Source: Synechococcus sp. RCC307 (lineage in GTDB: Bacteria > Cyanobacteriota > Cyanobacteriia > PCC-6307 > Cyanobiaceae). From it: a stretch of DNA of 64,000 nt. Below the pieces are notes generated by a model that was not told where the DNA came from, searched no databases, and saw only the letters and a list, made by a program, of their open reading frames with translations. Shown piece after piece: positions 1,866-13,989 of the stretch (positions are counted from its first letter, which is position 1; each line of letters opens with the position of its first letter). The stretch lies in contig CT978603.1 of NCBI GenBank assembly GCA_000063525.1, positions 1,111,105 through 1,175,104 of the forward strand, in the 5' to 3' direction. Both the position numbers and the translations under genes were made by a program.

Positions 1866-1930
1866 TGCTCAATTAGCTGCCAAAAAACCAGCCAGACTTG
1901 CGCAGTTTGTAACACCAATGAGACTCGTGA

Positions 1931-1952
1931 GATGTATCAGGTGCGTATCAAG
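1931..1952 (+). repeat. Left copy of a perfect 22-bp direct repeat
   Basis: This 22-bp sequence recurs exactly at 3894-3915 in the same orientation. Each copy contains GTATCA twice, separated by GGTGC. The two copies bracket an AT-richer segment holding gene fragments, as expected of attachment-site duplications. Checked by eye. Confidence 0.7.
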
Positions 1953-2065: not shown

Positions 2066-2488
2066 GTGCCTCGCGCCCCAGGCCGGCGGCAGCAGGAATC
2101 GCTGAACGAACTCTGGGTCGGTCGCTGCAACCAGAACCTCAGTGGTGAAGAGCTGATTGGCGCCAACTTCGTGGCTCAGACCCTTGATGCTCTCCTCAAG
2201 CGCATCGCTGAAAACGCCGGTGCCAACGGCTCCGTCGTGGCTGAGAACGTGCGCCATAAGCCCTTCAGCGAGGGCTTCAACGCCGCCTCGAACGAGTACG
2301 TCGACATGCTGGCTGCCGGCATCATCGACCCCGCCAAGGTGACCCGCTCTGGCCTGCAAAATGCCGCGTCCATCGCTGGCATGGTGCTGACCACCGAGTG
2401 CATCGTGGTTGATCTTCCTGAGAAGAAGGAAGCAGCTCCTGCCGGTGGCGGCATGGGCGGCGGCATGGGCGGCCACTTCGACTATTAA
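2066..2488 (+). pseudogene. groEL: C-terminal fragment of chaperonin GroEL
   Basis: From about 2135 the frame encodes an excellent match to the last ~115 residues of cyanobacterial GroEL. Blocks include [62 protein letters not shown] and a glycine/methionine-rich tail ending HFDY. Roughly 400 residues of the apical and N-terminal domains are missing, including the ATP-binding N-terminus. The first ~20 codons after GTG 2066 look only weakly related (LNE...NLSGEEL). No fold of GroEL can form from this piece, so it is a 5'-truncated duplicate. The reading frame is still open, which suggests recent copying or selection against frameshifts. Its transcription terminator was copied with it. Confidence 0.85.
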
Positions 2489-2539
2489 TCTCGGAGGAGG
2501 GATTCATTCCTCCCCCGCCCACTTCAAACAGTATTTATC

Positions 2540-2561: not shown

Positions 2562-2689
2562 GTGCCCACGAACCGACAGGCAAAATGTGTTTATCAACGG
2601 GGGTGGGGTGGAGGCTGCTTGGATCATTCTTAAGTCGGTAGTGGCATCAATGCCTGGGGATGTTGGATTTTTCATGCTGAGGTCCACTG

Positions 2690-2714
2690 CTTTCCTGCTT
2701 TCCTGCTTTCCTGC
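2690..2714 (+). repeat. Tandem repeat, three copies of CTTTCCTG
   Basis: Copies lie at 2690-2697, 2698-2705 and 2706-2713, followed by one more C. The array lies right where composition changes from GC-rich to AT-rich. Confidence 0.8.
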
Positions 2715-2766
2715 AAATCACTAATGACAAAATTTATAATTGGTATAATTTTGTATTGAGTATTGC

Positions 2767-2795
2767 TTGACATTGCGCGCATGCTCGTATTTAAT
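2767..2795 (+). promoter_or_regulatory. Sigma70-type promoter for the RHH/lipoprotein pair
   Basis: A perfect TTGACA (-35, 2767-2772), a 17-bp spacer and TTTAAT (-10-like, 2790-2795) lie 25 bases before the GTG start at 2820. No Shine-Dalgarno is evident, so translation may be nearly leaderless. Confidence 0.55.
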
Positions 2796-2819
2796 TTTGC
2801 GTAATCTTTTGCAACAACA

Positions 2820-2993
2820 GTGAAAAGAATAACACTCGAAGTCGCTGACGAGTTATATAAAGAAATTAAAAAATTTGCTTTTATCGAAGAACGGAGCATC
2901 TCTTCTGTAACCAGAGAGGCATTAGAGATGTATTGCGAAAATAGACAGAGCAGAGAGATCAAAATTCTTGACCAGAGATTGAATAAAAAATAA
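2820..2993 (+). CDS. Small ribbon-helix-helix-like DNA-binding protein
   Basis: The 57-residue product begins MKRITLEVADELYKEIKKF and continues with SISSVTREALEMY. This is the beta-strand, helix, helix layout of Arc/CopG/MetJ-type repressors and of many antitoxins. The start is GTG; an in-frame stop lies at 2802-2804 and no other start codon intervenes. Its TAA is followed after one base by the ATG of a lipoprotein gene, so the two are probably cotranscribed and coupled. Codons are AT-rich, unlike the flanking genes, which suggests acquisition. No obvious toxin partner is present, so it may instead be an autoregulator of the pair. Fold assignment is by sequence pattern only. Confidence 0.6.
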   Translation: MKRITLEVADELYKEIKKFAFIEERSISSVTREALEMYCENRQSREIKILDQRLNKK

Positions 2994-2994
2994 G

Positions 2995-3483
2995 ATGAAA
3001 CCCATTCTTTTGCTCTTAATTACCGTGCTCTCTGCATGCTCTGCAGGTAGCAGCGGTGATGCTGAGAAAATAGTGTCTTCTTCTGGCAATCAGCAGGAAT
3101 TATCAGATCTAGCTAAATTTATTCACAACGAGTCTTTTCGGGAAGCAATGCTTCAATCTTGCCGGTCAAGCGGGAAATCATTTGTGAGAAGTTCAAGTTA
3201 TGGCAATTGGTATCGGCTTAAAAACTGCAATCTAAGATTCGAAAATATTGACATCAAGGATCAGAATATTTTACTTCATGAGGACTATAACGGTGTGGTT
3301 AATGGGCTCAGATTAGTGGTGTATCCCGACTCCGAATATGGGCAGTTTATTAGCCAGAAATACGAGCCATTTCAGGTTAAAGCCGAGGATAATATATGTG
3401 TCAGGTATTACGATAGTACTCGTCCATTCTTGACAATTGCAGATAACTCTCTTTGTGAAGGCCTTATTTACAAGCAGATTTGA
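2995..3483 (+). CDS. Unrecognised lipoprotein in the accessory patch
   Basis: The 162-residue product has a lipoprotein signal: K2, a hydrophobic run and lipobox LSAC with the lipidated Cys at residue 15. The mature part contains four further Cys (56, 78, 135, 154), which could form two disulfides in the periplasm. No enzymatic motif or known family was recognised. The gene starts one base after the RHH gene, and the pair shares a strong promoter. Composition is clearly more AT-rich than the neighbouring housekeeping genes. Possible roles such as surface protection, immunity or uptake are speculation. Confidence 0.7.
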   Translation: MKPILLLLITVLSACSAGSSGDAEKIVSSSGNQQELSDLAKFIHNESFREAMLQSCRSSGKSFVRSSSYGNWYRLKNCNLRFENIDIKDQNILLHEDYNGVVNGLRLVVYPDSEYGQFISQKYEPFQVKAEDNICVRYYDSTRPFLTIADNSLCEGLIYKQI

Positions 3484-3555: not shown

Positions 3556-3849
3556 TTACTCTTGTTCGTTGAATCCGACCAGCAGGGCACGAAGCGTCTC
3601 CCCTCGCTCTTCGGTAAGGGTCTTCCAATCCATCACCTCCCGCAGGTGATCAAGGACCCACTTGAGCGCCTCTGCTTTATCAGCGATGCGAAGGGACTTC
3701 TTGATGTAGTCCTGCTTCTCGTCTGAATAAACGCGGCAATACCAATTCGTCGGGCGTGGAGTCCACTTATAGACATCGATTCCAGACACCACCTGGGTCA
3801 CATCCAGGAGGCCTTTGTTGGGGTCCTTGCTGGGTGGGCGGGGCACCAT
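3556..3849 (-). CDS. Possible N-terminal remnant of a tyrosine-type integrase
   Basis: About 97 residues, beginning MVPRPPSKDPNKGLLDVTQV if ATG 3849 is used; a GTG at 3873 would add eight residues. The block NWYCRVYSDEKQDYIKKSLRIADKAEAL resembles the arm-type DNA-binding N-terminus of phage-like integrases (W-x-x-R-V-Y ... KSL-x-T-x-D-K-x-E-A). The catalytic R-H-R-Y domain is absent: the frame stops after EERGETLRALLVGFNEQE. It lies 44 bases from the right 22-bp repeat, the usual place for an integrase next to its attachment site. It could equally be a stand-alone protein of unknown role. The family call is an inference from pattern, not from a search. Confidence 0.4.
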   Translation of the reverse strand: MVPRPPSKDPNKGLLDVTQVVSGIDVYKWTPRPTNWYCRVYSDEKQDYIKKSLRIADKAEALKWVLDHLREVMDWKTLTEERGETLRALLVGFNEQE

Positions 3850-3893
3850 GAAGCAGCGTGTTTGAATCCCCACATTTTACCGCTTCCGCAAGT

Positions 3894-3915
3894 GATGTAT
3901 CAGGTGCGTATCAAG
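3894..3915 (+). repeat. Right copy of the 22-bp direct repeat
   Basis: Identical to 1931-1952. It lies 20 bases beyond the ccsA stop codon, consistent with insertion just downstream of that gene. Confidence 0.7.
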
Positions 3916-3935: not shown

Positions 3936-4871
3936 CTAACTGTCGAAAAACCAGCCATAGCTGTGCAAACCAATGCCCAGCAGATTGACGCCGATGTAGC
4001 AAACGCTGATCACAAACAAGCCACTCACCGCGACCCAAGCGGGTCGGCGTCCCTGCCAGCCGCGGCTCAGGCGTGTGTGCAAGTAGGCGGCATACACCAG
4101 CCAGCAAATCAAAGCCCAGGTCTCTTTGGGGTCCCAGCTCCACCAGCTGCCCCAGGCTTCATTGGCCCACACGGCACCACTGATGATGCCGACGGTGAGC
4201 AGCAGAAAGCCCACAGTGATGGTCCGGTAGCTGAGGTTGTCGAGGCGTTCGCTCAGGGCAATGGGGGCAGCCTCCAACACCACCGTCCCGCCATCGGTTT
4301 GCAATCCAGCCTTTTGAAAACTGCCGCTACCAATCGAACTGCTGCGCAGCTCCATGGCTTGGCCCGGCTGCGTGAACAGCACCGCAGCCGATAACAACGA
4401 GCCCACTAGCAATGCGGCGTAACTCATCATGATCACGCTGACGTGCATCACCAGCCAGCTGGACCTGAGCGCTGGCACCAGCGGTGCAGCGTTTTGCAGC
4501 GTGTCTGGAAGGGCAAAGCTGGCAAAGGCGACGCACACCAGAGCCATGGGTGTGGTGGCTGCCGGCACCAGCGGCGAAGGCCAACTGCGTTCCACAAACA
4601 ACTGGGTGAAGGTGCAGCCCCAGGCCAAGAAGCAAAGCGATTCGTAGAGGTTGCTGATCGGGAAATGCCCCGAATCCAGCCAGCGCCAGAGCAATTGGGC
4701 CGTAAGCAGCAAGTTTGCCGCCACCACCAACAGCTGAACCACGCGGCTGGTGCTGGAGCGCGGCTCACCGCTGAGATTCCAAAAGGCCAACGGCAAGGCG
4801 AGGAGCAACGCTCCAAAAGCCATCAGCCCAAGCAGCAGAACCGGATCGTTCAAAAGCCCTGGCATCAACAC
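3936..4871 (-). CDS. ccsA: Cytochrome c biogenesis protein CcsA (system II)
   Basis: This 311-residue polytopic membrane protein belongs to the CcsA/ResC/CcmC haem-handling family, which with CcsB delivers haem to apocytochromes c on the lumenal side. The diagnostic tryptophan-rich motif [13 protein letters not shown] begins near residue 240. Flanking His residues suited to haem ligation are seen in [12 protein letters not shown] and near the C-terminus (GLHSYGWFF). Two Met codons (4871 and 4865) are possible starts. It is the last gene of a leftward cluster led by typA, 27 bases after lptF. Its C-terminal codons have a degenerate look-alike at about 1870-1910. Confidence 0.95.
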
Positions 4872-4898
4872 CTCAGTTTTAGGACATCCCAGCTGGGA

Positions 4899-11837: not shown

Positions 11838-13989
11838 TTGCGGCGAAATCAGCCAACACCGCCGCCTGGTTGCCCAACACGGCCAGCAGGTTCAGGCGGT
11901 TGCGGCGCACCGCCATGTCATCAGCCATCACCATCACGCTGGTGTCGCCATCAAAGAAGGCCGCGAGGGTGCTGCTACTGGCCGCTAGTGCCTCACACAG
12001 TTTCGAATAGCGATCAGCCCCCTGCTGGCCAACGATCCCGGAGAGTTGATCGACAACTTTGAGCATGGCGGCTTCGCTGGGTTGCTCGAACAGCGATGCA
12101 TCCACCACCCCAGTGCTGCTGAGAACATCAGCTGCCAAATCGCCTTTTTCAGCGAGGCGAACAGCGCGTTGCACTACCGCTTGCACCGGAGCCAGCTCCC
12201 CAGCTGAACGCAGCTGCTCCAGCAAGCGCAGACGATCGAGTGCATCGAGGGGATCGCGCAGCAGGCGCTGATTGGCGCTCTGGGGCGTCACGGCCTGCAC
12301 CAAATCCACAGCTTCGCCCTGCTCTTCCAATTGGCTAATCAAGCGCTGGCGCAGGAACTCCTGCAAATCCGCCTGCAGCTGGGAAGCATCGATTGCAAAA
12401 CCAGGCAACAGCTCCGCCCAGTGGTTGCAAGCCTGCTGCAAGAGATCCTGCAAATCGAGGCGCCACTGACGCTCCCAGAGGATCTGCAGGATGCCGTTAC
12501 CAGCGCGGCGCAGGGCATAGGGATCCGATGAACCGGTGGGTCGCTGACCCTTGGCAAAGATGCTGAGCAAGAGCTCCAGGCGCTCCGCTAGAGCCACCAC
12601 CGCTCCGGCATCCGAGCTGGGCAACACATCATCGGCGCCACGGGGCAGGTAGTGCTCTTGAACCGCCAAGGCCACCGATGCTGGCTCTCCTTCGGCCAGC
12701 AGGTATTTGCCCCCCATCAAACCCTGCAGTTCAGGGAACTCACCCACCATCTGGCTGACGAGATCGTGTTTGCAGAGGTGGGCGCCGCGGCAGGCATCGG
12801 CTTGCGCTGCAGCATCAAGAGCCAGACAGCGGCCCAAGGTTTGAGCGAGCCACTCCAGGCGCTCACATCGATCCAGCAAGCTGCCCAGCCCTTCGGCAAA
12901 GGTGACCCGGCTCAACTGAGCCCGTCGTTGCTCACTGGCCACGGCACGATCAGCATCCAAGAAAAAGGCCGCATCAGCCAGTCGCGCCTTCAGCACCCGC
13001 TCGTTGCCGCGGCGGATTGAGTCTTCAGCCCCATCGAGGCCATTGGCGATGCAGAGGAATTGGGGCAACAAGCAACCGCGTGCCTGCAGGCTGAGCGGAT
13101 CCACCTCAGCGCTACGCCGATACAGCGGCACATAACGCTGATGGCTACGCATCACGGTGCTGAGCACCTCAGCAGGAAGATCCAAGGATCCATCGTCAAT
13201 GGCCCCCTCAATCAAGCTGGGACGCTCCACCAGATCGGTGAGCTCTTCGAGCAGTTCGTCAGGCAGATCAGCGCGAGCGTCGCGCTTGCTGGCGGCTGCC
13301 GCAATGGCATCAGCAATGAGCTGGCGGCGCTGCTGGCGGTTCACCATCACACCGGCACACGCCAAGCAGTCGCCATAGGCCGACGCCGCTGGTATGGAGA
13401 CCTCAGCTGCCACCAAGCGGTGGCCAAAACTGGTGCGGCCTGATTGCACAGGCGGATCGCTGCCCTCCAAGCTCAGCTCCACCACCTGCTCATCGAGAAG
13501 GGCCACCAACCAGCGAATCGGCCGCGAAAAGCGGCGCTCGCCAGCGCCCCAGCGCATGAAGCGGCGGCCTTGCAGGGCAGCGATCCAGCCAGGGATGAGC
13601 TCAGCGAGCAGATCGGAGGCCTGGCGTCCCTTCTCCAGCACCGAAGCAAACACAAAGGGACCTTTGGGGGTCTCACGGATTTCCAACTCTTCAGGCTGGA
13701 GACCGCAGCGTTGGGCAAAGCCAAGCGCCGCCTTGGTCGGCATGCCGTCTTGGAAAGCTTGGGCAGCAGGGGGACCTTTACGCTCTTCTTGAAGGTCGCT
13801 GGCTGATGGCGCCAAACCATCGATGCAGACAGCGATCCGGCGCGGAGTACTCGTGCAGCTCAGGCCCTCACAGGCCAGGCGCTTCTCGCTGAGATCACGC
13901 CGCACCATTGGCTCCAGCTGAGCCAACACCTGAGCGGCGAAATCAGCGGGCAATTCCTCAGTGCCGATTTCGAGCAGGAAGCTGGCCAC
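11827..13989 (-). CDS. glyS: Glycyl-tRNA synthetase beta subunit
   Basis: The beta chain of the bacterial alpha2-beta2 glycyl-tRNA synthetase, responsible for tRNA recognition. Diagnostic blocks are ASFLLEIGTEELPADF at the N-terminus, SCTSTPRRIAV, FMRWG...FSRPIRWLVALL and AMLKVVDQLSG. About 720 residues are encoded if the GTG at 13989 is used; an ATG at 14040 would add 17 residues not seen in the family and would abut the sir gene. The C-terminus overlaps chlP by 11 bases. The alpha subunit gene is not in the window. Confidence 0.95.
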   Translation of the reverse strand: MASFLLEIGTEELPADFAAQVLAQLEPMVRRDLSEKRLACEGLSCTSTPRRIAVCIDGLAPSASDLQEERKGPPAAQAFQDGMPTKAALGFAQRCGLQPEELEIRETPKGPFVFASVLEKGRQASDLLAELIPGWIAALQGRRFMRWGAGERRFSRPIRWLVALLDEQVVELSLEGSDPPVQSGRTSFGHRLVAAEVSIPAASAYGDCLACAGVMVNRQQRRQLIADAIAAAASKRDARADLPDELLEELTDLVERPSLIEGAIDDGSLDLPAEVLSTVMRSHQRYVPLYRRSAEVDPLSLQARGCLLPQFLCIANGLDGAEDSIRRGNERVLKARLADAAFFLDADRAVASEQRRAQLSRVTFAEGLGSLLDRCERLEWLAQTLGRCLALDAAAQADACRGAHLCKHDLVSQMVGEFPELQGLMGGKYLLAEGEPASVALAVQEHYLPRGADDVLPSSDAGAVVALAERLELLLSIFAKGQRPTGSSDPYALRRAGNGILQILWERQWRLDLQDLLQQACNHWAELLPGFAIDASQLQADLQEFLRQRLISQLEEQGEAVDLVQAVTPQSANQRLLRDPLDALDRLRLLEQLRSAGELAPVQAVVQRAVRLAEKGDLAADVLSSTGVVDASLFEQPSEAAMLKVVDQLSGIVGQQGADRYSKLCEALAASSSTLAAFFDGDTSVMVMADDMAVRRNRLNLLAVLGNQAAVLADFAAISG

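Follow-up and report, generated by a model that had tools for sequence, protein, structure and literature searches.

The closest described counterparts of the gene pair analyzed here come from separate systems. On the side of the lipoprotein, Ltp, encoded by prophage TP-J34 in Streptococcus thermophilus, mediates superinfection exclusion and blocks DNA entry (PMC3952083). On the side of the ribbon-helix-helix (RHH) protein, MetJ is a regulator that binds short tandem repeats, the AGACGTCT boxes (PMC4239095), other RHH regulators act on 7-bp heptads arranged as tandem operators (PMC9499535), and the chromatic-acclimation island CA4-A of marine Synechococcus carries an RHH gene (PMC3877281). The pair lies in a window of 64 kb, by which we mean the whole stretch of Synechococcus sp. 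RCC307 DNA that was analyzed (64,000 nucleotides), where it occupies a 2.1-kb insertion between rpe, which ends at about 1810, and ccsB (3936-4871, minus strand). CcsB was searched in six genomes of the same genus, including its own; four matched, its own among them, and in the three besides it (G024, G138, and G097) rpe and ccsB are about 85 bp apart, as against 2,125 bp here. The pair is real, conserved, and mobile; it is ordinary as an RHH gene and new as a pairing within the literature and libraries searched, the literature, mainly open access, having yielded no earlier description of an RHH-lipoprotein pair. The features of the insertion are collected in Table 1.

Table 1. Features of the insertion between rpe and ccsB, in window coordinates
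Feature	Position	Strand	Remark
Att-like core AAAAACCAGCCA, left copy	1883-1894		Displaced 3' end of ccsB; two copies only in the window
22-nt direct repeat GATGTATCAGGTGCGTATCAAG, left copy	1931-1952	+	Exact repeat; possible arm-type integrase site
groEL 3'-end fragment	2128-2493	+	357/366 bases (98%) identical to the genome's own groEL; chaperonin GroEL family match
8-bp tandem array CTGCTTTC x 3.5	2687-2714	+	Candidate RHH operator or iteron; found by TRF; array correspondingly placed in L008 and L009
Imperfect palindrome, 8-bp arms ACAAAATT/AATTTTGT	2727-2754		Second operator candidate; weak, P ~0.10 in shuffles
Sigma-70-like promoter, TTGACA-17-TTTAAT	2767-2795	+	TTGACAT of the -35 region also upstream of both G192 copies
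RHH (Arc/CopG-like) protein P0001, 57 aa	2820-2993	+	GTG start; 49 and 56% identity to the G192 copies
Lipoprotein P0002, 162 aa	2995-3483	+	ATG start; lipobox LSAC; four conserved Cys; no Pfam family
ORF P0003, 105 aa, probable tyrosine integrase N-terminal fragment	3556-3873	-	Starts beside the right-hand repeat
22-nt direct repeat GATGTATCAGGTGCGTATCAAG, right copy	3894-3915	+	Exact repeat, just inside the core
Att-like core AAAAACCAGCCA, right copy	3946-3957		12 bp, within the 3' end of intact ccsB

The initial annotation had described an RHH gene one base ahead of a disulfide-capable lipoprotein gene, in foreign-looking sequence and behind a strong promoter, and these points are borne out. 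At the confirmed coordinates of the two ORFs, a single base (2994) separates the RHH stop codon from the lipoprotein start, and the GC content is 0.34 in the RHH gene and 0.40 in the lipoprotein gene, as against 0.605 for the window. The N-terminus of the lipoprotein, MKPILLLLITVLSAC, was judged by eye to be a lipoprotein-type signal peptide with a lipobox Cys. That Cys is aligned in six of the seven family members and missing in the one from G304, whereas Cys 56, 78, 135, and 154, together with a Gly and a Trp, do not vary among the seven. Searches of Pfam matched no family to the lipoprotein, and no enzymatic or binding domain was matched in it. An EexN-family match (E 0.098) fell under the cut-off and was discarded; the structural model, built from two sequences (mean pLDDT 60), returned YjgB DUF4309 (Z 5.5), YdcD (Z 4.3), and the immunity protein Smlt3025 (Foldseek E 0.03), all below a useful level and not used. 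For the RHH protein, the best PHROG match is "Arc-like repressor" (E 1.4e-5, with Arc-like repressor families spanning E 1.4e-5 to 1e-3), and Pfam RHH_5 and RHH_1 match solely below their cut-offs. Its single-sequence AlphaFold model (mean pLDDT 79.6) has helices at residues 6-22 and 32-55 and, as a monomer, forms no strand; the top 26 Foldseek rows are, by name, RHH proteins or RHH-antitoxin complexes, all with E > 1.

The promoter stands out from its surroundings. TTGACA (2767-2772) and TTTAAT (2790-2795), separated by a 17-nt spacer, match 11 of 12 consensus positions, and the site is the sole one on either strand of the window to score at least 11/12; on this uniqueness, and because Markov shuffling of the 129 nt upstream gave P = 0.0034, we reject TTGACA as a chance occurrence. 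A promoter-prediction tool overlooked the site only because its rule required an A as the second base of the -10 box. The operator proved to be a different matter: the inverted repeat proposed around 2767-2819 is not found there, and the candidates lie upstream, in the tandem array and in the weak palindrome. The array is the window's only exact array with a period of 6-12 and at least 2.75 copies. Upstream of the two paired loci in G192, another picocyanobacterium, stand CTGCTGTG-type arrays of 8-bp units; neither locus has a second exact array with a period of 7-12 and 2.5 or more copies. TTGACAT recurs in the upstream regions of all three paired loci. The array-to-start-codon distance is 105 bp in the window, 178 bp in L008, whose upstream region contains a 65-bp internal duplication, and 104 bp in L009. 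Because the array is identical between the G192 copies while the promoter stretch is just 64% identical, either of the two could be the true operator.

We read the insertion between rpe and ccsB, on the strength of its sequence features, as a decayed tyrosine-integrase island. The end of the target gene is duplicated at both borders, as in tyrosine-integrase islands: the 12-bp core belongs to a longer match to the end of ccsB, a direct repeat of 31 nt with 77% identity. The 22-nt repeat has only these two copies in the single-contig genome (2,224,914 bases) when up to three mismatches are allowed, and a reversed control gave none; in IMG/VR, neither the exact window array nor the 22-nt repeat was found. 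Searched in 390 genomes of the taxonomic family, P0003 matches 10, including its own, at E <= 0.01, and the matches are weak (E 1e-3 to 7e-3), which speaks against the island reading. Four of its nine non-self matches lie in long open frames; the other five, in short frames that contain stops, carry no information. Three of the long-frame matches, tested with Pfam, are integrases (PF00589 above the cut-off in two and just below it in one), P0003 aligns to the N-termini of these full-length proteins, and tblastn with one integrase against the island gives E 3e-4. A tblastn search of the island with five integrases showed no catalytic part, and because only the 105-aa N-terminal piece is present, we call the island a remnant rather than a complete element. 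No tRNA was found in the 64-kb window, and Rfam gave no match in its first 8 kb. A 366-bp tail of the host groEL gene was recently captured into the island; the fragment was considered as a former att site, and inspection of the groEL locus by eye showed no integrase-like ORF.

The two genes also occur together elsewhere, in an arrangement that goes beyond chance: at both G192 loci (L008 and L009) they are adjacent, with the RHH gene overlapping the lipoprotein gene. Each of these loci is a larger element that has integrase-like and resolvase genes, and L008 additionally carries a ParB-like/methylase gene. The insertion site of L009 is the end of guaA, a gene identified by eye; this end is duplicated at 4836-4853 and 13947-13964, and the element has inner repeats, GGGTTTCACCTGCGTTTCACCC, at 4892 and 13745. 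For L008, the search for an att site was negative. The inner repeats of the window and of L009 both fit GTWTCANNTGCGTWTCA, which is present twice in each, at the element ends; a scan of ten sequences gave no further copy. The insertion, the duplicated core, the inner repeats, the weakly matching integrase remnant, and the RHH-lipoprotein order on other elements are thus established at the level of sequence. G192 as a whole holds two related small elements that differ in integrase and target site and have a common core, much of it 92-98% identical. Between them the RHH-lipoprotein block is 85% identical (dN/dS 0.37 for the lipoprotein and 0.17 for the RHH protein), whereas the array-side neighbor genes are 92-98% identical; because the opposite flank holds a gene for a 123-aa exported protein that is equally diverged (85%), diversification is not special to the pair.

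The lipoprotein family is small. As a lone query the window protein matches 4 of 400 genomes of the taxonomic family, its own included, and a five-member profile matches 7, one of these being a doubtful partial match; among 388 genomes of the class there are 6 matches, none of them credible outside the family. Seven loci were kept: the one in the window, both G192 loci, and single loci in G065, G010, G109, and G304. The G304 relative, which lies on a 3.2-kb contig, is exported and has no lipobox. Left out of this count were a partial match in G047 (E 0.005) and a match in G628 (E 0.004) that covers model positions 4-76 inside a 952-aa frame. Plasmids, phages, and IMG/VR hold no credible relative, the 50,697 phage records included, and a Klebsiella phage row (E 0.8) was discarded. 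A profile of three RHH proteins has no match in the G065, G010, G109, and G304 loci. The lipoprotein therefore does occur without an adjacent RHH gene, in four of the seven kept loci, but the concern that it might do so widely is not upheld, as the protein itself is confined to 7 of 400 genomes. A tRNA-Ser(cga) lies about 0.5 kb from the lipoprotein gene in G065 (L010) and 3.7 kb from it in G010 (L048). These two RHH-less genes have CTAGAT direct repeats with 9-bp spacing directly before the start (L010 9048-9115 and L048 9562-9675), which suggests a different regulator. Between tRNA-Ser and the lipoprotein gene, L048 (6269-8801) encodes a Z1-domain helicase, which resembles a PADLOC model and lies within 1 kb of the lipoprotein gene, and a 186-aa protein without a family match; these two are possibly a defense pair.

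The initial annotation had stated that RHH proteins usually accompany toxins and had regarded a secreted lipoprotein as an unusual partner, a view that the relatives in marine Synechococcus do not sustain. An RHH search matched 44 of 400 genomes of the taxonomic family, and in 18 further loci inspected (L014-L031) a short stand-alone RHH gene adjoins a gene of about 316 or 409 aa. Three such neighbors, when tested, turned out to be AraC-type regulators (two) and a CpeY-like bilin lyase (one), and these neighborhoods agree with that of the RHH gene of the CA4-A island (PMC3877281), so that a toxin partner is not expected for this RHH subfamily. Upstream of the CA4-type RHH genes (L014-L017), four of eight loci inspected have an inverted repeat of the TTTCTT/AAGAAA or CTTCTT/AAGAAG type, a candidate operator, and no tandem array. 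A toxin-antitoxin pair, in which the RHH protein would be the antitoxin of an unusual exported partner, would fit the gene order, with the RHH gene first and its partner directly downstream, as well as the mobile location. We nevertheless hold it to be very improbable: the partner matches no toxin family and is a predicted lipoprotein with an export signal, family members lack the RHH gene in four of seven loci, which would hardly be possible for a toxin, and the 57-aa RHH protein has almost no C-terminal extension with which to neutralize one.

If the lipoprotein is not a toxin, what it does may be sought in (i) exclusion or immunity or (ii) some other role at the cell surface, and to each of these we assign about the same, limited likelihood. 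For the former, a possible function, the pointers are the mobile location of the paired loci, a small exported protein of the disulfide type, the divergence of the operon block with its dN/dS values, and the helicase of G010; against it, the RHH gene is missing beside four of the seven family members and so is not essential to the lipoprotein, which has no sequence, profile, or fold match to exclusion proteins and no credible homologue in the phage records, and the other exported gene of the G192 elements is just as diverged. The five-member profile matched no PDB chain at E up to 10; an Ltp structure, cited in PMC3952083, may be among these chains. The latter would make the pair generic mobile-element cargo, a nutritional, stress, or adhesion lipoprotein with its own repressor and no connection to exclusion. 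An island position and a private regulator are compatible with any cargo, the best-supported RHH relatives reside in a pigment-acclimation island and not among defense genes, and the G065 copy is surrounded by genes that, read by eye, resemble those for surface sugars; yet nothing in the protein matches an enzymatic or binding domain, and a small protein of the disulfide type that has no credible homologue beyond picocyanobacteria was judged less typical of nutritional cargo. That the operon is instead a nonfunctional leftover of a decaying island we consider unlikely. The adjacent integrase and groEL pieces are truncated and the window lipoprotein is just 38-39% identical to its closest relatives, as a relic might be, but both ORFs, the start-stop spacing, the lipobox, the four Cys, and the promoter are intact, whereas the neighbors are not.

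Our preferred reading, held tentatively, is that the pair forms the cargo operon carried by a small, decayed tyrosine-integrase island, with an autoregulating RHH protein and a surface lipoprotein that has an exclusion or immunity role. We posit that a small island integrated into the 3' end of ccsB, most of its integrase being lost afterwards. The RHH protein would dimerize, bind repeats upstream of its own promoter (the 8-bp array and/or the palindrome), and keep operon expression at a fixed level. Produced by coupled translation, the lipoprotein would leave the cytoplasm, receive its lipid at Cys15, form two disulfides on folding, and be exposed on the cell envelope, where it could block the entry of phage or competing-element DNA by surface exclusion or superinfection immunity, as Ltp does. 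The proposal of a surface-modification, immunity, or defense-like module with its own repressor thus stands insofar as the two genes make up a conserved unit, lie on mobile DNA, and include a plausible regulator of their own, the function staying a best guess. A more specific version is doubtful: a domesticated immunity operon, retained after the integrase was lost, in which a lipoprotein family of marine picocyanobacteria, under a MetJ/omega-like RHH protein on an 8-bp tandem operator, would exclude phages or rival elements, its specificity diverging among elements of one chromosome. Conflict between cyanophages and their hosts shapes the ocean's most abundant photosynthetic cells, and to our knowledge few exclusion proteins are known in marine picocyanobacterial hosts. 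A two-gene unit with a readable promoter and recognizable element ends offers a testable exclusion candidate, and the ends themselves can guide searches for small integrase islands whose targets are not tRNAs but the 3' ends of protein genes.

Set beside the systems described to date, each part of the locus has a partial counterpart. With tycheposons and other marine tyrosine-recombinase islands (PMC10872708), the island has in common a tyrosine recombinase, here a probable fragment, and cargo genes; tycheposons measure 4-200 kb and target tRNAs, whereas here the island is 2 kb long and the targets are the 3' ends of protein genes (ccsB and guaA). The RHH protein resembles the CA4-A RHH proteins, which are stand-alone proteins of 55-67 aa with about 33% identity over nearly the full length and a similarly short C-terminal tail; their partners are AraC-type regulators and a bilin lyase and include no lipoprotein (PMC3877281). 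MetJ, with its 8-bp Met boxes, and omega/ParB(pSM19035), with 7-bp heptads, use short tandem operators (PMC4239095 and PMC9499535), to which the candidate 8-bp units here would correspond; unlike either, the island ORFs include no methionine gene and no ParA partner, and RHH binding is putative. From Ltp, the lipoprotein differs in lacking a sequence match and in belonging to a host that is not Gram-positive, and the available part of PMC3952083 describes no RHH partner for Ltp; exclusion is hypothetical here, and the two nevertheless share a predicted plan, that of a small lipoprotein whose gene lies close to the integrase on an integrated element and which is tethered outside the membrane.
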